From assembly GCF_029193595.2 (NCBI RefSeq), contig NZ_CP135052.1:2418001-2482000 (forward strand): DNA of 64,000 nt, given 5' to 3'. Positions 53,540 to 64,000 of this stretch are shown one piece after another; position 1 is the stretch's first letter, and every line of letters begins with the position of its first letter. A program made the translations under genes and the position numbers. The notes below the pieces were generated by a model. That model saw only the letters and a list, made by a program, of their open reading frames with translations. It was not told the DNA's origin and searched no databases. This DNA comes from Providencia hangzhouensis (GTDB lineage: Bacteria; Pseudomonadota; Gammaproteobacteria; Enterobacterales; Enterobacteriaceae).

Positions 53540-56296
53540 CTATGCCTCCTGCTTTTTCAGGAATAAAACACTGAGCCCAATAACCAATGGAACAGTGATC
53601 AGTAATGGGATAAACGATGACTGTAAATCGAATAAATTTAGTCCCTTAGAGAAGGTTCCTCGCGTGATAGTTAAAAAGTGTGATGTTGGATAAACCATCC
53701 CAACCCAGCGGCCAATACCTTCCAATGATGAAACTGGGTCAATCATTCCTGAAAATTGTGTTGCTGGTATCAGAGTGATGATAGAAGTACCAAAAATTGC
53801 TGCAATTTGGCTTTTCATAAAGCATGAAATCAATAGCCCCATTCCTGTTGCAATACTGATATACAAAAATGCGGCCAAGGTTAACGTCAGAAAACTACCT
53901 TTAAATTCAACACCAAATATATAGACGGACAGTATGCAAAGTAATACAAAGTTAAACATGCCTAATAAAATATAAGGGAGCTGCTTTCCAAGTAAAAACT
54001 CTAATTTGGTGATCGGGGTGACATAAAGATTGATAATCGAACCAAGTTCTTTTTCCCGAACAACACTCAATGCGCTAAGCATTGCGGGGATCATCATTAA
54101 TAATAATGGAATAACTGCGGGAACAATCGCCGGTAAGCTACGAACATCTGGGTTATAACGATATCGGGTTTCAATGTCGATAGCTGGCATACCAGCAACG
54201 CCAACGGGTTGGCGAGCAGCCATCGTACTTAGCCATGCTAAGTGCATCGCTTGCACATAGCCACGCACAGTTTCAGCGCGGTTTGGCATCGCACCATCAA
54301 TCCACACGCCAATTTTAACGTTATTGCCGCGTGCAACGTCCCTTGCGAAGTTAGGCGGAATTTCAATCGCAACGGTAATCTTACCGCTACGCATACCAGC
54401 CTCTAAATCATCATAATCCTTGATTGGTGGTTGTTCGATAAAGTAACGTGAACCTGCTAAGTTCAGCGTATATCCTTGACTTAACCCCGTTTGGTCGCGA
54501 TCTAGTACGGAAAAACGTAAATTTTCGACATCCATACTAATACCGTAACCCATAATAAACATAAGAATTACAGTCCCTAATAACGCGAGTGTTGAACGCA
54601 CTGGGTCACGACGTAATTCCATCCCTTCTCGAATGGAATAACTGAATAACCGGCGTAAACTAAAACGTTTTTTTAACGCTTCGGTCGCTTGTTCTTTCAG
54701 TTCAGGGTCAACATGGAACTCAGGGGCAGTTTCTTGCCCTTGTCCTGCATCCCCCACAGCATCCTGTAAATAAGCAATAAAGGTTTCTTCAAGCGTGCCA
54801 AGGCCTCTTTTTTTGGTCAGGTTAGCAGGGGTATCACAATCTAAGACTTTACCTGCATGCATGAGTGAAATACGGTCACAGCGCTCTGCTTCATTCATAA
54901 AGTGCGTAGAAATAAAAATTGTGACACCGTCACGTCTTGATAGATCGACCATCAAATTCCAGAACATATCTCTGGCAACGGGGTCTACTCCCGAAGTTGG
55001 CTCATCGAGGATTAACATTTCAGGTTCATGAATAACTGCGACAGCTAAAGATAACCGTTGCCGGATCCCCAAAGGTAAATCGTCAGGCATTACGTCTCGC
55101 ACATCATCAAGTTCAAAACGCTGGCACATTTCGTCCACTCGCTGGGGAATTTTGTCCTCAGCTATATGAAAAAGCTTGGCGTGAAGTACGAGATTTTGCT
55201 CAACACTCAATTCACTATATAGTGAAAATGCTTGCGACATGTAGCCGACACGCTTACGTGTTTCGATATCTTTCGGATCTATTTCTTGACCAAATAGCCA
55301 TGCTTGCCCTTCACTGGCTTGTAATAAACCCGTCAACATTTTCATAGTGGTTGATTTACCACAGCCATTAGACCCTAAGAAACCAAAAATCTCCCCTTTT
55401 GGGATCTTAAAATTCACATGGTCAACAGCGACGAAGTTACCAAAACGCATAGTTAGGTCTTGGGCTTCAATAGCAATAATATTGTCTTCTGTGGTATCAC
55501 GTGGAGGGATCACGACTTTTTTGTGGCCACTGCGTTTTTCTTCAGGTAGTAATTCAATAAACGCAGCTTCAAGATCATCACATTGAGTTTGGGCTTTTAA
55601 TTCAGATGCATGACCTGTAGCGAGCACCTTGCCATCATCCATTGCCACTAACCAATCAAAGCGTTCGGCCTCTTCCATATAAGCCGTTGCGACCAAAACG
55701 CTCATATTGGTTTGTCGCAAACGAATGCGGTCAATTAAATCCCAAAATTGCGCACGAGATAACGGGTCAACCCCTGTAGTAGGTTCATCCAAAATTAATA
55801 AATCGGGATCATGAATTAGCGCACAGCATAACCCAAGCTTTTGTTTCATCCCTCCTGATAACTTGCCTGCTGGACGGTCTTTAAATGGCGCAAGCCCTGT
55901 ACTTTCAAGCAAATCCTGAATCCGATATTCACGCTCAGCTTTTGATTGGCCAAATAAGCGGCCAAAAAAGTCGACGTTTTCATAAACAGATAACGTATGG
56001 TAGAGGTTCTTCCCTAAACCTTGCGGCATGTAGGCGATGCGAGGGCAAACAGCTCTACGATGCTCAATATCACTCATATCACCATCAAGTACCGTTATTT
56101 GGCCTTGTTGAATCACTCTTGCCCCTGCAATCAGGGAGATCAGGCTTGATTTTCCTACACCATCAGGGCCAATCAACCCAACCATTTTTCTTGCTGGGAT
56201 GGAAAGTACAATGTCATCCAACGCACAATTGTCACCATAATGTTGGCTGACATGTTGTATATCGATAATCACATCACCCATCAGTTTATTGGTCAT
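53540..56296 (-). CDS. rbbA: RbbA-type double ABC ATPase with fused permease
   Basis: 918 aa. Two ABC domains (Walker [10 protein letters not shown] and [17 protein letters not shown] signature in the first, degenerate LPLGIRQR in the second; Walker B LLILDEPT and [10 protein letters not shown]) followed by a C-terminal ABC-2 membrane domain (about 570-915). E. coli RbbA is ribosome-associated and encoded in the same gene order. Here it may also belong to an export complex with YhhJ and the HlyD-like protein. Confidence 0.92.
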
Positions 56297-57363
56297 TGTG
56301 GTAATCTCACCTCTAATTCAGCAGGCCAAGATTCATTAGGGTCTAAACGTACATAAGCTTTTCCGGGCAGCCCTGTTTTCACATATTCTAGATGTTGCTC
56401 TAATAATTCAGGCGAAATTCGTGCACGCACTCTGAACATTAATTTTAGGCGTTCATTTTGTGTTTCTACGGTTTTCGGTGTGAATTGAGCAACACTCGCC
56501 ACGAAAGTGGTTTTGGCTGGGATCACGATATTTGGTGCAGCGTCAAGTATGATGTGAACATCACTGCCTAAGGCAACTTTTCCTGCATCTTCAGTCGGTA
56601 AGAAAAATGTCATATACACATCACTTAAATCGACCATGTTCAAGACTCGCCCGCCAGCGCCAAGTACCTCTCCAGGCTCAGCGACACGATATTGAATACG
56701 CCCGTTTCTTGGCGCTTTTAGAATACTGTCATCTAAGTCCGCAATAATACGGCGTTCCGTTGCTGTCGCTGCATCAACACGGTTTTTCGCTTGGACTATA
56801 CCAGCGCTTGCAGAATCAATGGCTGATGTCGCGGCGGCAACTTGAGCTTTTGATGCTTCCAGTGCTGCACGAGAGCCTTGCATCTGTGCTGTATCATCAT
56901 CGACTTGTTGCTGAGATACGGCGTTGGTTCTCACCAAAGCTCTAGAACGATTTAACCGTTTTTGCGCTGCGTCTAACTCCGCTTCACGTTGACGAACAAC
57001 AGCTTGGGCTGCAACTTTTTCGCTTTTACGTTGCGCTAAAGCAGACTCGGCAGTGGTCACTGCACTGATGGCTTGGCGTAATTGTGCCTGTACTTCATGG
57101 AGTTGCTCTTGGAGTGCTCGCGTATCCATACGAGCAAGTTCTTGCCCTTCTTTAACAAAATCCCCTTCTTTTACATTAATCGTTTCAATACGTCCTGCTG
57201 TCTTAGTGGCAATATCAATTTCTGTTGCTTCTATACGGCCGTTACTTTGAGAGAATCCAGCGGGTAGACCACCTGAATTAACATTCCAGTAATAGAAACC
57301 ACCCGCAACAATAATTAATATTAAAATGATGTAAAAAGATACTTTTTGTTTATTTATTTTCAT
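56293..57363 (-). CDS. HlyD-family membrane fusion protein, YhiI-like
   Basis: 356 aa. N-terminal anchor ([20 protein letters not shown]), barrel segment [20 protein letters not shown], long coiled-coil hairpin (about 75-210) and closing barrel. Links the ABC transporter to the periplasm. ATG 57363 with AAAGGG upstream; its stop overlaps rbbA (ATGA). First gene of this operon. Confidence 0.9.
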
Positions 57364-57673
57364 ACCATCCCTTTCCATTAAATGAGAAAACAAGGAACAA
57401 CAATTATTTTGATTATTAACCTGGTGATTATTAATAAAATGACATAACTGTCTCTATACGAAATAAATACCCTTAAAACTAAAAATATTATTTTTATTTA
57501 AAACTTGGCCAAGTAAGTGTTAGCACTACCATTAAATTGGCTATCTATTTAATTTAATGGCATTTTATCAACATTTGGTTTAAGTTTAGTTGCCTTATGT
57601 CACAAAAAAACAGAATAAACTCACAAAAATCAGGATAAGGCATTAATTGTACATATTTAATTCAAAATAAAAA
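57364..57673. other. Intergenic region upstream of the yhiI-like gene
   Basis: AT-rich and without a gene. It must contain the minus-strand promoter of the yhiI-rbbA-yhhJ operon; no boxes or operators could be assigned reliably. Confidence 0.4.
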
Positions 57674-57733: not shown

Positions 57734-58210
57734 TTAGCTTGCGAATGCAGCAATCACGTTTTCATCCATTCGGTAACGAACCCATTCATCTTGCGGTTCT
57801 GCGCCAATACTTTTATAAAAATCAATTGCTGGCTGGTTCCAATCTAAAACACTCCATTCCAGCCGTTGGCACTTTCGTTCTACGGCTAACACTGCAATAT
57901 GCTTGAGTAACTTCTTTCCTGCACCCGCGCCACGAAAATCTGGGGAGACATACAAATCTTCTAAATAAATACCATTATTCCCTAACCATGTTGAATAACT
58001 CGTAAAAAATACGGCATACCCTGCTGGCTGGCCATCCACATAACAGATTAAGGCTTCTGTGCTTGAATTCGCTCCAAATAAGGAATTTTCAATATCAGCT
58101 ACCGTGGCTTTAACTTCGTGACGTGCTTTTTCATAATCTGCCAATTCAATGATCATATCTAATATCAAAGCAGCGTCATCACATGTTGCGGGTTTTATTT
58201 CTACGTTCAT
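57734..58210 (-). CDS. GNAT acetyltransferase, SSAT-like
   Basis: 158 aa. IYLEDLYVSPDFRGAGAGKK is the acetyl-CoA motif; RLEWSVLDWNQPAIDFYKSI and WVRYRMDE follow, as in polyamine/diamine acetyltransferases. Substrate not proven. Another SSAT-like gene is at 7900-8358; the two are not close copies. ATG 58210 is preferred over upstream ATGs for its fit to the family N terminus (VEIKPATCDDA). Confidence 0.85.
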   Translation of the reverse strand: MNVEIKPATCDDAALILDMIIELADYEKARHEVKATVADIENSLFGANSSTEALICYVDGQPAGYAVFFTSYSTWLGNNGIYLEDLYVSPDFRGAGAGKKLLKHIAVLAVERKCQRLEWSVLDWNQPAIDFYKSIGAEPQDEWVRYRMDENVIAAFAS

Positions 58211-58366
58211 TTGGGGCTCTCTTGTTTTTTGAATCATGATTTTAAACGCTACATAGCAAGAACCCAATTCACAGCAATATTATTCATTTCTTCGCGCATG
58301 ATATAAGTAACATTTATACCTGTATATGCTTTTTCCTATAATAATCAGAGAGCGCATTTTCGGACC

Positions 58367-58396
58367 TTGTTGGTTAAATAACATATTAGCTATAAT
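58367..58396 (+). promoter_or_regulatory. Promoter of the ABC-F leader transcript
   Basis: -35 TTGTTG (58367-58372), 18-base spacer, -10 TATAAT (58391-58396). About 40 bases from the leader peptide start. Confidence 0.65.
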
Positions 58397-58438
58397 TCTC
58401 TCATCGATTAACTAAATGAATATTAAGGAGGCTAATTT

Positions 58439-58522
58439 ATGTTGTTGTGTGATCTTATTGAATATTCACACTTCTTTGGTAATCGCCAGAGCTCAGGCTT
58501 TCACAGTTTTATACTGCGATAA
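58439..58522 (+). CDS. 27-aa leader peptide upstream of the ABC-F gene
   Basis: ATG 58439 to TAA 58520-58522, encoding 27 residues starting MLLCDLIEYSHFFGNRQSSG and ending FHSFILR. AAGGAGG lies seven bases before it, by far the strongest ribosome-binding site in the area and stronger than that of the ABC-F gene. The last third of the frame pairs with downstream sequences (GCTCAGGC with GCCTGAGC), so ribosome position on it would control folding. Not a known peptide; I infer a leader for attenuation. Confidence 0.7.
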   Translation: MLLCDLIEYSHFFGNRQSSGFHSFILR

Positions 58523-58602
58523 CCCTGCCTGAGCGAAGCCACTAAAGAAAATCTTCCCTCAGCTTACTGGGTTGTCGTTACGACTATACCCTGGCGTTTT
58601 TT
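58484..58602 (+). terminator. Terminator-like leader structure (attenuator) before the ABC-F gene
   Basis: CGCCAG (58484-58489) pairs with CTGGCG (58591-58596), directly before T6 (58597-58602); within it GCTCAGGC (58491-58498) pairs with GCCTGAGC (58527-58534) and GTCG (58573-58576) pairs with CGAC (58581-58584). A ribosome stalled in codons 16-20 would open the outer stem. Confidence 0.6.
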
Positions 58603-58623
58603 CGCCTAAAATTTGAGTAAGCT

Positions 58624-60369
58624 ATGAGCACTTTATTAACTGTAAAATCATTAAATTACGATACTTCAACCTCTACCTTATTAAGCGATATTTCTTTTAC
58701 CATCCAACAAGGTGACCGCATTGGTTTAATTGGCCATAACGGGAGTGGAAAAAGTACATTATTGAAGCTAATAACCCAACAACTGTTTCCTAATAGTGGC
58801 AGTATTACCTATGCAAATCATTGTGTTACTGCTTATATTGAACAACATTTACCCGATGAAATCGCTTGTTTGACTCTGATTGATGCGCTTGTTCAAAAAC
58901 TCCCTGAACAAGATAAAGTCACTGAGCGCTGGCGGGCTGAAGTTTTATTATCAGAATTAGGTTTTACACCTGAACAATGGGAACAAAAAGCGAATGCCAT
59001 CAGTGGAGGACAACATACACGTTTGCTGCTGGGGCGTGCTTTAATTGAACAACCCGATTTACTGTTACTCGATGAACCTAGTAATCATTTAGATTTGCCC
59101 ACACTGATTTGGTTAGGTAATTTCTTACAGTCATGGAAAGGGAGTTTTGTGCTAGTTTCCCATGACCAATCGTTATTAGATAAAGTCAGTAACTGTACTT
59201 GGATTTTACGAGATAAATCATTACATTTTTATCGGTTACCTTGCAGTGCAGCACGGCAAGCATTAAGTGAAAAAGACATCACTGATGCACGTCGTAATCA
59301 AGCCGAGCAAAAAGAAATTGACCGTATTGCATCAAGTGCCAAGCGCTTAGCGATTTGGGGGCATGTGTATGACAATGAAGCCTTATCACGCAAAGCTAAA
59401 CAGATGGAAAAACATATTGACCGTCTTAAAGATGCCCAAACTGAGCTAACTGAAGGCTATCAATGGAAGCTTGCTTTAAATGGCAAAGCTATTCCTGCAG
59501 ATAGAGTTTTAGAGTTGGAAAACACCGTTGTTTCAACACCGAATGGAAATCAGTTATTTAAAACGGCATTTCATCAAGTGAAAAGTGGTGATCGTATCGC
59601 TATCATGGGAGCCAATGGCTGTGGTAAATCAACACTATTACGTCTACTTTGGCAACATTATCAACAAGATTTACGCTATAGCTCACAATTGAAGTTTCAT
59701 CCAGCAATTCGTGCTGGTTATTATGACCAACAATTAGAGCAGTTAAATGATAATGATAGCCTATTAGATGCACTACGTCATTTTTCACCTTTAACCGATG
59801 AACAACGAAAAATGGCATTGATTGGAGCGGGTTTTGCCTATAATCGTCACCAACAGAAAGTGGCAACACTGAGCGGTGGTGAACGCGCTAGATTATTGTT
59901 TATTGGTTTAAGTTTAGCTCAGTATGAGTTGATTTTGTTAGACGAACCTACCAATCACCTTGATCTAGAAGGTAAGGAAGCGCTTTGTGAGCAAATTAGC
60001 TTATTTTCTGGGGTATTATTGGTTGTAAGCCATGATAAATGGCTCATTGAAAATAGCTGCCAACGCTTCTGGTTTATCGATGATAATCGGCTAGAGGAAT
60101 ACCTTAATGCTGATGATATTTATCATAAAATCGAGCAGCAATCCCAGCAAGTGTTAACGTCTACGCTTGGGGAAAATGCCCCTTCTAAATCAACGATTGA
60201 AATTCTCAGTAAGGAAGCTACTCATGAAGATGAGTTGTTAGAAACATTGCTGATATTGGAGCAAAAGCTACTTGCGGATCAAAAACGCAAATTAAACCAC
60301 CAAAAACCGCAATTACAGCAGCAGTGGATCAACGAAATAGCCCAAATACACGCTAAATTGGGCTTGTAA
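58624..60369 (+). CDS. ABC-F family ATPase
   Basis: 581 aa with two ABC domains and no membrane segments. First domain: Walker A GHNGSGKST, ISGGQHTRLLLGRAL, LLLLDEPSNHLD; linker with charged helices (about 225-280), then GANGCGKST, LSGGERARLL and LILLDEPTNHLD. ABC-F proteins act on ribosomes; some confer resistance to ribosome antibiotics. It does not match EttA, Uup, YheS or YbiT closely by eye. The leader peptide with an attenuator upstream is typical of resistance-type ABC-F genes, so this is a candidate but unproven. Confidence 0.88.
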   Translation: MSTLLTVKSLNYDTSTSTLLSDISFTIQQGDRIGLIGHNGSGKSTLLKLITQQLFPNSGSITYANHCVTAYIEQHLPDEIACLTLIDALVQKLPEQDKVTERWRAEVLLSELGFTPEQWEQKANAISGGQHTRLLLGRALIEQPDLLLLDEPSNHLDLPTLIWLGNFLQSWKGSFVLVSHDQSLLDKVSNCTWILRDKSLHFYRLPCSAARQALSEKDITDARRNQAEQKEIDRIASSAKRLAIWGHVYDNEALSRKAKQMEKHIDRLKDAQTELTEGYQWKLALNGKAIPADRVLELENTVVSTPNGNQLFKTAFHQVKSGDRIAIMGANGCGKSTLLRLLWQHYQQDLRYSSQLKFHPAIRAGYYDQQLEQLNDNDSLLDALRHFSPLTDEQRKMALIGAGFAYNRHQQKVATLSGGERARLLFIGLSLAQYELILLDEPTNHLDLEGKEALCEQISLFSGVLLVVSHDKWLIENSCQRFWFIDDNRLEEYLNADDIYHKIEQQSQQVLTSTLGENAPSKSTIEILSKEATHEDELLETLLILEQKLLADQKRKLNHQKPQLQQQWINEIAQIHAKLGL

Positions 60370-60375
60370 CCGATA

Positions 60376-60409
60376 CCCCTGGTTACGTTAAGTGATCAGG
60401 GGATTTTTT
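60376..60409 (+). terminator. Intrinsic terminator of the ABC-F gene
   Basis: CCCCTG and CAGGGG stem followed by ATTTTTT. It starts just after the stop codon. Confidence 0.85.
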
Positions 60410-60593
60410 ATGAAGTTATATATTGATATAGGATCATAGCTAAAGTTTACAAAATAATTATATGCACCCTAAAATTTACCTTATTGATGGAATAATAGAA
60501 GACTGAGTCGCGTTATTCATCAATAAGAAAATAAATAAGGTTTATTCTTTATGTCTTTTAAGTGAATAAAGATTTTGTAAACTATCTAATTGG
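60410..60593. other. Intergenic region between the ABC-F and the 67-aa gene
   Basis: AT-rich; nothing recognised. Confidence 0.3.
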
Positions 60594-60797
60594 TTATTTT
60601 ATTTTTTGTTTCTTTGCTCGCTTAAAATATGAAGTTGGCACATTAGGGCATACAACCTCTTTAAATTTAACGTCTTTATTCGCCTTCACAGACGGTTCAT
60701 TTTCAGATGAAACCGGGGCGTTGCTCTGTGGTATTTTGCTTGTCTCTTTCATATATAAACGCTCTTTTGCTTGTATAATATCATTCGTTTTAGCCAT
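60594..60797 (-). CDS. Small hydrophilic protein (67 aa) cotranscribed with padR
   Basis: 67 aa, starts MAKTNDIIQAKERLYMKETS and ends with a Lys-rich tail (YFKRAKKQKIK) containing one Cys. The ATG lies within the end of padR and has GAGGG eight bases before it, so translation is coupled. Function unknown. Confidence 0.6.
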   Translation of the reverse strand: MAKTNDIIQAKERLYMKETSKIPQSNAPVSSENEPSVKANKDVKFKEVVCPNVPTSYFKRAKKQKIK

Positions 60798-61341
60798 TTG
60801 ATTTTCCCTCTGCCACTAACACTGCATTGACTTGCTCAATACGTTCCACTGCTCGGTTAATGATCTCAACGACTCTTGTTGTCTCTTCTTTCGTCAACTG
60901 TTGTATCACGATTTGGTGTCTCAACAATGACTTAAATTTATCTACAGCGCATTCAATTTCATTAGCGAATTGATTACCTGCTTTTAATTCCTGAGCATAT
61001 TTTAATTTTAGTTGAACTTCTGCCAATATTTCAGCTTTGAGTAATAAAAAACAGCGACCTTCTGGCGTTATGACATAACACTTACGCCCTTTTCCATTAT
61101 CTTTACCCGCCGAAATAAACCCTAACTCCTCTAATAACGTCAGAGTTGGATATATCACACCTGGGCTTGGGCAATAAAAACCTGCCGTTTCTTCTGCAAT
61201 TTTTTTTATTAGCTCATAACCGTAATTAATTCCCCCTGTCAGTAAATGTAGGATATAAATCCTTAACTGTTTAGGGTTAAACATACGACTGACACTTTTA
61301 CCGTTGCACAAACACGGCTCGAGTTGTTGTTCATTTGCCAT
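60790..61341 (-). CDS. PadR-family transcriptional regulator
   Basis: 183 aa. The PadR HTH (LRIYILHLLTGGINYGYELI; PSPGVIYPTLTLLEELGFI; KCYVITPEG) is at about 25-95. The N terminus carries CLCNG, which could bind metal, recalling E. coli YqjI, a Ni-responsive PadR protein, but the His-rich YqjI N terminus is absent. Function by similarity only. Its leader has palindromes and a Fur-like box. Confidence 0.85.
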   Translation of the reverse strand: MANEQQLEPCLCNGKSVSRMFNPKQLRIYILHLLTGGINYGYELIKKIAEETAGFYCPSPGVIYPTLTLLEELGFISAGKDNGKGRKCYVITPEGRCFLLLKAEILAEVQLKLKYAQELKAGNQFANEIECAVDKFKSLLRHQIVIQQLTKEETTRVVEIINRAVERIEQVNAVLVAEGKSNG

Positions 61342-61620: not shown

Positions 61621-62829
61621 TTACCCAATATTAGGTAATATGTTGAAAACAATCCCTAGCTGAACACCAATGACTATAATTCCACAAATAAATACTAATG
61701 AAAGACCTAATCCACCGCCTAACACTTGATATTTCCGTTGGTTTAATGTTCTTGATTTAAATGCCATAGCACTAGGTAATAATAAAGCCAGTATTGAAAG
61801 TGCGATTGCGGCATACCCTAACGCCATCACAAACCCTTTAGGATAAAATAAAGCAAAAACTAGTGGTGGTCCAAAGGTGAGCAAACCTGTTTGTAGACGC
61901 CCTGACGCATTATCTTGACGTTTAAATAAATCCGCTAGAAAGTCAAATAACCCCAAAGCAACACCAAGGAAAGATGTCGCAAGCGCCAAACTCATAAACA
62001 TTTGTGCAATTAACTCTGTTTTTCCTGATTGAGCCACATCTTTAATTGCATCTAATAATCCATTAAGCCCTGCGTTTTCCGCCAAAATACCAACAAATGT
62101 GGTTGTACCAATACTCCCTAATGTTGCGATTTGCCATAAAATATAAGCAATCAACGGGATAGCACTTCCGATAATAAAAATAACCCGCAATTTTTTGACA
62201 TCTCCCCCCATGTATTTAACGATACTTGGGACGCTACCATGAAAACCAAAGGAGGTAAAAAACACCGGTATAGCAGATAAAATAAGTACTTTTTCAGTTG
62301 GGGCAGCTAATAAATTTTGTTGCTCAACATGCGGCATCATTAATGCCAATATAATGACTAAGAAAACAATTTTTGCAGCAAATAAAATACGGTTGATAAA
62401 ATCTACGGATGAAGTCCCGAAACATACAACTCCCCCACCAATGACGGTAAATACAACAATTCCCATCCAATCTGCCATTTCAATAGCAAAACTACTTTTC
62501 AAATTTGATGTAATGATTTCCCCTGCTCCACTGACATAAGCTGCTGTCAATGCATACATCAGGAACATCATACTAAAACCCGTAATAAATTTGCCACTAG
62601 AGCCTAAGTACCGTTGTGCAACACTACCGATCCCAGTTTCGTGAGATTCATGTTGATAAACTTCGACCAAAAGTAACGCCGTGTAGCACATCAATGCCCA
62701 CAACACTAATAACATAGCGAGGCTCACTAAGAAACCATTACCCGCGGCAGCGATAGGCATGGCTAACATACCTGCGCCAATCGTAGTACCTGCAACAATA
62801 AATACACTACCAAGTGTGCGATTTTTCAT
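61621..62829 (-). CDS. tyrP: Tyrosine-specific transporter TyrP (HAAAP family)
   Basis: 402 aa, 11-12 membrane helices. [20 protein letters not shown] at the N terminus is the family signature, then [20 protein letters not shown] in the central loop. The neighbouring tyrDC indicates exchange or uptake of tyrosine for decarboxylation to tyramine. Follows tyrDC by 20 bases as an operon. Confidence 0.93.
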
Positions 62830-62849
62830 ATTGAGATCCTAACAATCAA

Positions 62850-64000
62850 TTAAATATTAATTTTATAATTAGAGTGATTTAACTTATTTTCTTCATTAAT
62901 GAGTTGTTGTAATTTGTCTTCAAAAATATTTTTTAACTCTGCCCAATAGGTTTCAAAATGTGCCCTATCACGCAGGCAATGTGTCATGACTGCCGCCCGT
63001 AGCACATAAATCGACCGTACTTTATGCCATTCACTATCAGAGAATTGTGCATCTCGACATAGATTCAATGGGTTATCGCCATATTCTTCATAAGTTAGCG
63101 AGGTTGATGAGGTGAGAAAATCATTAGAATAACTCCGGCCTGCCGCATAAGAGCATAATTCATATAACCGTTTATTTAATTGATTTTGTTTTTCTAAAGA
63201 GGTGTTGCCAATTTCACGAAACATAAAGTTAATCATGTGAAAATCAGGCGTTGGCATCGCTATAATTGAAAATTGACGTTCCTCAATAATAAAAGGCTCA
63301 CATTGATTAATTTTATCAATCATCCAATTGGCAGTGATGACCCCAGCCGCAATCACTTTTCCATACCCTAAAACATTTAACGGAACTAAGCGATGTGCAG
63401 CCCATACCGCTGCTGCGGTTGCGCCCGCTTTTGACCCTTCCATAATAGATGAGCCCAATAATACATTTTGTGTTTTTTCTGTTTTACGCTGCTTTTCTTG
63501 AACTTCTTCAAATACATAAGCGGCATGGTAAGAAACTAAATCCACAATCCGCTTATCTTTCATACAAATTGCACCTGCCGCATAAGGAATAAACCCCACC
63601 TTATGAGGGTCAACGGTAATCGAGTCCGCTTGGCTTAATGCTTTAAAGCTTTCATAAACATCACGTTTTGGCCACACCATATTTTCAGGAAAAAGCCCTT
63701 CACTATGATAGCATTGGAGTAAATTCTCATACTCCATAAATTGGTTTTCTTCATCGCGAAACATCGCACAAGCGTATCCCGCGTAAGCAGCATCGATATG
63801 CACATAAAAAGAAACCCCAAAACGTTGCTCGCATTCACGTCGTAGCTCAATAACTTCTCTGACATTGTCTATTGCGCCAGTTTCTGTGGTACCAACAACG
63901 GCAACTACCGCTAAAATTGGCTCCCCTTGCTCAATTAATGTAAATACCGTTTCACGCATTTTACGCACATCTGTTCGATAACTTGCATCAACGGGTAATT
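62850..64000 (-). CDS. tyrDC: Tyrosine decarboxylase, 5' end outside the window
   Basis: At least 383 codons in the window, the 3' part of a PLP-dependent group II decarboxylase of about 600 aa. VHIDAAYAGY (PLP-contacting Asp) and SITVDPHKVGFIPYAAGAIC (PLP Lys) are intact. The frame continues to 64000 upstream of the in-frame Val codon at 63968 (sequence LPVDASYRTDVRKM), so the start lies beyond the edge. Makes tyramine from tyrosine. A tyrDC-tyrP pair is known in Providencia alcalifaciens. Confidence 0.94.
   Translation of the reverse strand, partial: LPVDASYRTDVRKMRETVFTLIEQGEPILAVVAVVGTTETGAIDNVREVIELRRECEQRFGVSFYVHIDAAYAGYACAMFRDEENQFMEYENLLQCYHSEGLFPENMVWPKRDVYESFKALSQADSITVDPHKVGFIPYAAGAICMKDKRIVDLVSYHAAYVFEEVQEKQRKTEKTQNVLLGSSIMEGSKAGATAAAVWAAHRLVPLNVLGYGKVIAAGVITANWMIDKINQCEPFIIEERQFSIIAMPTPDFHMINFMFREIGNTSLEKQNQLNKRLYELCSYAAGRSYSNDFLTSSTSLTYEEYGDNPLNLCRDAQFSDSEWHKVRSIYVLRAAVMTHCLRDRAHFETYWAELKNIFEDKLQQLINEENKLNHSNYKINI

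Follow-up and report, generated by a model that had tools for sequence, protein, structure and literature searches.

The leader and the ABC-F gene in the window

The window, by which we mean the whole 64,000-nucleotide stretch of DNA that was analysed, belongs to a genome of 4.6 Mb. Its nearest named locus is that of P. rettgeri YPR31, whose ABC-F protein is 98% identical. Everything that the sequence-only reading had listed here is present in the window sequence, namely a promoter pair, the motif AAGGAGG, a 27-codon ORF, CGCCAG and CTGGCG, a T6 run and a weakly initiated ABC-F gene. The features are given below; the promoter-like pair, the leader Shine-Dalgarno motif and CGCCAG/CTGGCG were read directly in the sequence, and OFF and ON denote two mutually exclusive folds of the leader RNA.

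58367-58372 and 58391-58396, + strand: promoter-like pair TTGTTG and TATAAT, separated by an 18-nt spacer
58425-58431, + strand: Shine-Dalgarno motif AAGGAGG of the leader ORF
58439-58522, + strand: leader ORF of 27 codons, MLLCDLIEYSHFFGNRQSSGFHSFILR, with its stop codon at 58520-58522; the same length in 86 of the 90 relatives that have a leader
58447-58471, + strand: P0 hairpin within the leader ORF (58447-58452 with 58466-58471), from covariation
58484-58489 and 58591-58596, + strand: CGCCAG and CTGGCG
58491-58498, + strand: strand A, at codons 18-20; OFF partner C, with A:C covariation
58502-58507, + strand: strand B1; OFF partner 58513-58518, the first part of B2
58513-58525, + strand: strand B2, which holds the leader stop codon; 58517-58525 is the ON partner of E
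58527-58538, + strand: strand C; 58527-58534 pairs with A in OFF, 58529-58538 with 58553-58562 in ON
58553-58568, + strand: strand D; 58553-58562 pairs with C in ON, 58561-58568 with H in OFF
58569-58577, + strand: strand E; ON partner B2
58593-58606, + strand: hairpin GGCG-TTTTTT-CGCC with T6 as its loop, from covariation
58616-58623, + strand: strand H, the ABC-F ribosome-binding region up to the AUG; OFF partner 58561-58568
58624-60369, + strand: ABC-F ATPase gene encoding 581 aa, preceded by a weak ribosome-binding site; from NCBIfam, Pfam and ATPase motifs
60376-60409, + strand: terminator-like hairpin (60376-60402) followed by T6, 3' of the ABC-F gene, from the terminator scan

The leader ORF and the ABC-F gene are separated by 101 nt in the window, and the leader RNA has a more stable fold than expected by chance (z -3.8), matched by 1 of 200 shuffles. 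A simple promoter scan did not list the TTGTTG-18-TATAAT pair because the scan's -35 rule was missed, and its 7 promoter-like sites were no excess over the shuffle mean of 10.7. A -10-like hexamer (at least 5 of 6 matches) was present upstream of the leader in 59 of the 90 loci, a count without a control set; in relatives it is placed about 46 to 48 nt before the leader ATG.

The best NCBIfam model for the ABC-F protein is 'ribosomal protection-like ABC-F' at 347.4 bits, below the cut-off of 380, and the protein passes none of the curated resistance or ribosomal-protection models. Pfam finds two ABC_tran stretches and no transmembrane domain family. Both ABC ATPase sites are intact, and the ATPase motifs are invariant in 31 homologues. 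The closest solved relatives by sequence are YheS and an ABC-F listed as ExpZ; we take the structure listed as ExpZ to be VmlR. Among named bacteria, the ABC-F occurs in Klebsiella, Providencia, Morganella, Vibrio and a Serratia sp.

A GNAT-family acetyltransferase gene (57734-58267, - strand) is divergent from the leader, and GNAT genes likewise lie near the ABC-F gene in Klebsiella and Morganella records. The gene for RbbA, a ribosome-associated ATPase and putative transporter (53540-57393, - strand; NCBIfam score 1579 bits, cut-off 1050), and that of an HlyD-type partner are located within a few kb of the ABC-F gene, which places two ribosome-linked ATPases close by. Downstream of the ABC-F gene there is a convergent PadR-family regulator gene (60790-61341, - strand). 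The gene of the tyrosine transporter TyrP adjoins a tyrosine-decarboxylase-like gene (together 61621-63968, - strand), of which the C-terminal part was found and whose ORF runs towards the window end.

Conservation of the leader ORF and its linkage to the ABC-F gene

A Shine-Dalgarno-led ORF was found 5' of the ABC-F gene in 90 of the 92 loci read, and the Shine-Dalgarno motif was strong in all 90. The 92 loci are partly non-independent: P. rettgeri is represented by a second strain (L031), and L042 and L074 are apparently one contig. The leader had 27 codons in 86 loci, 28 in two, and 33 and 35 in one each; the 33- and 35-codon leaders (L018 and L109) have a changed frame. In L018, the A:C stem is seemingly kept with other letters. 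Of the two loci without a called leader, L099 is a 44% paralogue, and L059 was missed because the locus begins at a contig edge and the fixed offset was wrong, an artefact at a site where the covariance model finds the element (G070). The distance from the leader stop codon to the ABC-F gene spanned 78-155 nt, with all three phases represented, indicating that the fixed ORF length is not a mere absence of indels. Among 65 distinct 27-residue peptides, S19 and R27 were invariant and L26 was present in 60.

The leader was also present in 10 of 11 named records. Divergent versions of the element occur in Vibrio and Photobacterium, whose leaders have 26 codons, and in Aeromonas, whose leader has 28. 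On a Pseudomonas silvicola plasmid, leader and gene are both degraded. For the order-level loci, the script gave a 26- or 28-codon leader in 17 of 19; of the exceptions, L135 is an edge artefact, and in L138 the script chose another ORF while a 28-codon leader is readable in the DNA. The leader ORF was unannotated in all five annotated plasmid-collection records with an intact gene (Ewingella, Pantoea, Morganella, Klebsiella and Rahnella), a gene table that is incomplete.

We compared the distribution of the element with that of the gene. An ABC-F orthologue was present in 111 of 392 sampled family genomes and in 39 of 154 genera. A covariance model (R1) built from 33 leaders located the element in 113 of the 392 genomes, one in each; a second site was listed in none of the 392, under strict filters that can lose weak matches. 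An intact ABC-F gene adjoined 110 of the 113 elements, on the same strand and with a gap of -2 to 15 nt, and the remaining three (G074, G240 and G381) sit with broken or truncated ABC-F copies. The sole ABC-F match without an element in this sample was a 44% paralogue (G091). The model also gave a single element in all 23 relatives that carry the ABC-F gene, intact in 22 and broken in one, and none in two same-genus genomes without it. A weak extra match among 60 relatives (G030, E 0.0018) was taken as chance. The sequence-only reading had staked its case on conservation of the peptide and the stems in related genomes, and both were found to be conserved, with the leader in 90 of 92 loci, covarying stems and the element in 113 of 392 genomes.

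None of the 4227 models of Rfam 15 reached its gathering threshold in the window, and the six matches in 58300-58700 at E up to 10 were all at chance level. A blastn search with the Klebsiella copy gave no match in E. coli genomes at E 1e-20. A full-text literature search, with most subscription journals and all preprints outside its scope, returned no description of this leader, nor of any leader peptide ahead of a chromosomal ABC-F gene in Gram-negative bacteria. The RNA and its leader ORF are best read as a new family within a known kind of element.

Two exclusive folds and the computed effect of ribosome position

In the OFF fold, A:C encloses B1:B2, and D:H sequesters the ribosome-binding site of the ABC-F gene as far as the AUG; in the window, D:H consists of 8 perfect pairs reaching the AUG. 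In the ON fold, B2:E (nine pairs, one of them G-U) encloses C:D (nine of ten pairs), and the ribosome-binding site is free. Alignment A1 comprised 58 of 59 deduplicated leaders, L054 with a long insert being omitted. In these 58 leaders, 90.2% of cells were paired in the OFF helices and 92.9% in B2:E. The covariation scores were 0.131 and 0.165, respectively, whereas slid pairings scored no higher than 0.073 and 0.065. Further pair types were no more frequent than in shuffles, both for the OFF helices and for B2:E. Individually, A:C was paired in 98.1% of cells, one of its pairs being A-U in 36 leaders and G-C in 20; the D:H core was paired in 86.5%; and the T6-loop hairpin, which covaries, in 98.3%. 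RNAalifold by itself yielded just A:C, a short P0, the T6-loop hairpin and a small local hairpin. Different letters make up the mask in Vibrio-type relatives.

We also exchanged strands between species and scored the native against the foreign partner in the 58 leaders. The native partner was preferred in 57 leaders for the T6-loop hairpin, 52 for A:C, 52 for P0, 47 for B1:B2 and 47 for E:F. The preference for B2:E was weak, 43 of 58 against 29-40 for non-helix controls, with unrelated B1:E at 40. This test gave no coevolution for D:H (26/58) or C:D (25/58), two helices that hardly vary. The first strands of the stems had been placed in codons 16-21 by the sequence-only reading. This agrees with the main stem, whose strand A lies at codons 18-20 (58491-58498). 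The CGCCAG/CTGGCG helix is not conserved (61.1% of cells paired, no clear excess covariation).

Two further pairings were observed. The covarying P0 hairpin spans leader codons 4-11. Strand A is also able to pair with about 58612-58618 in the ABC-F ribosome-binding region (duplex mean -8.2 against -3.7 kcal/mol when shuffled), with no coevolution between the two; the free fold of L128 shows this pairing, a possible second masking route.

These data bear on how the leader could act. The sequence-only reading had proposed transcription attenuation, with T6 (58597-58602) as the end of an intrinsic terminator that is read through when a ribosome stalls. CGCCAG, CTGGCG and T6 do occur in the window, and msrD and vmlR are reported to be under terminator control (PMC10314930, PMC9226507). 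However, T6 is the loop of a hairpin between GGCG (58593-58596) and CGCC (58603-58606), the terminator scan calls none at 58602, the closing helix is unconserved, and four T in a row occurred in the eight-base tail after the T6-loop hairpin in 0 of 58 leaders. The strongest terminator-like hairpin within 57800-60800 is that at 60376-60402, after the ABC-F gene. We therefore rejected an intrinsic terminator at T6 and regard transcription attenuation as improbable. Since the conserved output is a masked ABC-F ribosome-binding site, control of translation initiation fits better than read-through. Rho-dependent termination coupled to closed translation, as reported for topAI (PMC12121999), may apply.

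Folding with a ribosome over the mid-leader had been suggested as a check, and we imposed a 30-nt ribosome footprint on the leader and varied the P-site codon. The free window RNA was OFF, with 8.7 expected pairs for D:H, 0.1 for C:D and 0.0 for B2:E. The ribosome flipped the window fold, partly with the P-site at codons 15-16, where the RNA was half-open, and fully at codons 17-21, where it was ON (D:H 0.1-0.4, C:D 9.1-9.3 and B2:E 7.7-8.9). The RNA was OFF again from codon 22-23, and D:H was at least 8.3 from codon 23 on. Five footprint sizes agreed, the switching range moving by one or two codons. When the stop-to-RBS region was shuffled 200 times, a D:H drop of at least 8 pairs was seen in 1 of 200.

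Among the 58 leaders, 44 were ON-like with the P-site at codon 19. Moving the P-site from codon 19 to codon 26 raised D:H by at least 2 pairs in 46 of the 58 and lowered it in 1. The same rise was computed for 20 of 21 further sequences (window, named and order-level), the exception being L137. Other computed results speak against so simple a picture. As free RNA at equilibrium, 27 of the 58 had at least 3 D:H pairs and 23 were already ON-like, and in 11 of the 21-sequence set D made less than one pair with the start region. A D:H loss of more than 1 pair was computed in 27 of 58 leaders at P16 and in 26 of 58 at P18. The Shine-Dalgarno region opened at P18 in 21 of 40 of the leaders, and the AUG showed no average opening in the same 40-leader calculation (9 up, 9 down). 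The computed switching provides a reason for the stop codon inside a switch strand and for the fixed ORF length.

A structured leader that answers to a small molecule, temperature or Mg2+, with the ORF incidental, would likewise account for an RNA that is structured and covarying and for an ORF without overall peptide-level selection. We give it little probability: the ORF keeps its length while other spacings vary, all 90 leader-bearing loci have a strong Shine-Dalgarno motif ahead of the ORF, one of the switch strands contains the stop codon, and no Rfam model matches the RNA.

To assess selection on the peptide, pN/pS was calculated over codons 2-27 from 45 of 74 distinct ORFs. It was 1.00 overall and 0.54 in codons 12-17, and frame +1 gave 0.70 overall. 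The conserved residues 4-5, 10-11, 18-20 and 26-27 largely coincide with RNA helices. R27 remains arginine across a codon change (CGA 68, CGT 6), which hints at some peptide constraint. An arrest peptide under strong peptide-level selection was not borne out by the overall ratio and the lower value in frame +1. A drug-specific arrest peptide is possible; a sensor of ribosome position works without any arrest peptide. The combination of a leader ORF and alternative helices is also the classical layout of amino-acid or charged-tRNA attenuation, as in biosynthetic operons, but the ORF has no run of one codon or amino acid and the regulated gene encodes an ABC-F ATPase. In the absence of repeated codons we rejected this mechanism, which appears highly improbable.

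Proposed mechanism and comparison with known systems

Comparison and computation show the OFF/ON alternation, the fixed-length ORF and the flip of the window RNA at codons 17-21. We interpret the 5' leader as a ribosome-operated translational attenuator of the ABC-F gene, induced by slowed or stalled ribosomes, and place the probability of this reading at roughly three in four. The mixed state of the free RNA, the strand-exchange results for D:H, C:D and B2:E and the pN/pS ratios weigh against it. The core of the sequence-only reading, a leader attenuator with a ribosome over the mid-leader, is thus retained and strengthened by the comparative data, whereas its terminator mechanism is abandoned. 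In OFF, A:C with B1:B2 plus D:H would keep the ABC-F ribosome-binding site paired up to the AUG. A ribosome with its P-site at codons 17-21 would remove A and B1 and leave B2 and C free, so that B2:E could form around C:D and free the ribosome-binding site; a ribosome near the stop codon would cover B2 and restore OFF. OFF would be the resting state in cells through co-transcriptional folding and quick completion of the leader, and kinetic co-transcriptional folding may hold OFF in species with ON-like free RNA. The signal would come from ribosomes that are delayed or arrested near codons 15-21. The cause would most likely be an inhibitor that acts at the peptidyl-transferase centre or in the exit tunnel, and a drug may be responsible for the leader stall. 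The ABC-F protein would then relieve ribosome stress.

According to Murina et al. 2019 (PMC6723617), PAF1 is a proteobacterial ABCF subfamily and a predicted resistance ABCF. The present ABC-F is likewise proteobacterial, occurring in Klebsiella, Vibrio and a Serratia sp. without an E. coli blastn match. By this distribution, it probably belongs to the uncharacterised PAF1 subfamily. K. pneumoniae carries both the leader and the ABC-F gene. In this species, a 2025 study reports KP1_RS24555, called EttA-like by its authors, as the gene most significantly induced by bac7(1-35) (log2 +6.8), at a dose well above the MIC and with 2,511 genes changed (PMC12677791). This hints at KP1_RS24555 as a candidate for the K. 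pneumoniae ABC-F. Bac7 blocks early elongation, which by itself would not put ribosomes at codons 15-21.

A broader proposal, which we consider unlikely as a whole, is that the element serves as sensor for an inducible system of ribosome protection in Gammaproteobacteria that has so far gone unrecognised. It would read ribosome position rather than one arrest peptide, a delay at codons 15-21 meaning on and the stop codon, itself in a switch strand, meaning off, and the ABC-F (probably PAF1) would guard against natural exit-tunnel or peptidyl-transferase inhibitors, for example proline-rich host-defence peptides such as Bac7. If the attenuator operates as proposed, an ABC-F carried by 111 of the 392 sampled family genomes would remain off until ribosomes run into trouble, and the published prediction of PAF1 as a resistance factor (PMC6723617) would be supported. 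The leader would also be a ready reporter to find the compound to which it answers.

Translational attenuators of the ermC type alternate between 1:2 plus 3:4 and 2:3 pairing and mask the downstream ribosome-binding site. The present element shares the mask and the alternating pairings. A leader ORF lies upstream of the gene (by sequence, in 90 of 92 loci), a helix masks the downstream ribosome-binding site (free-state masking computed in 27 of 58), and the alternative fold is favoured, in computation, by a positioned ribosome. It differs from the ermC type in that its target is an ABC-F and its leader stop-codon region is a switch strand, so that finishing the leader enforces OFF. To our knowledge, the leader-controlled ABC-F genes known so far are Gram-positive.

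The toiL-topAI system of E. coli (PMC12121999) is similar in having an enterobacterial leader ORF and a structure that hides the downstream ribosome-binding site, which is opened by ribosomes stalled by several drug classes. Its target is a toxin-antitoxin operon and not an ABC-F, and its mechanism includes Rho-dependent termination. The vmlR gene of Bacillus subtilis has a leader ORF upstream of an ABC-F; translation attenuation is reported as one layer of its control, and induction needs stalling on the leader (PMC9226507). It is Gram-positive and uses an intrinsic terminator and RNA polymerase pausing, whereas the present leader shows no terminator. Finally, the msrD leader MsrDL (PMC10314930) also encodes a leader peptide upstream of an ABC-F with ribosome stalling as the signal. 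MsrDL acts through a drug-specific arrest peptide that prevents a Rho-independent terminator, whereas the present leader masks a ribosome-binding site and shows little peptide-level constraint.
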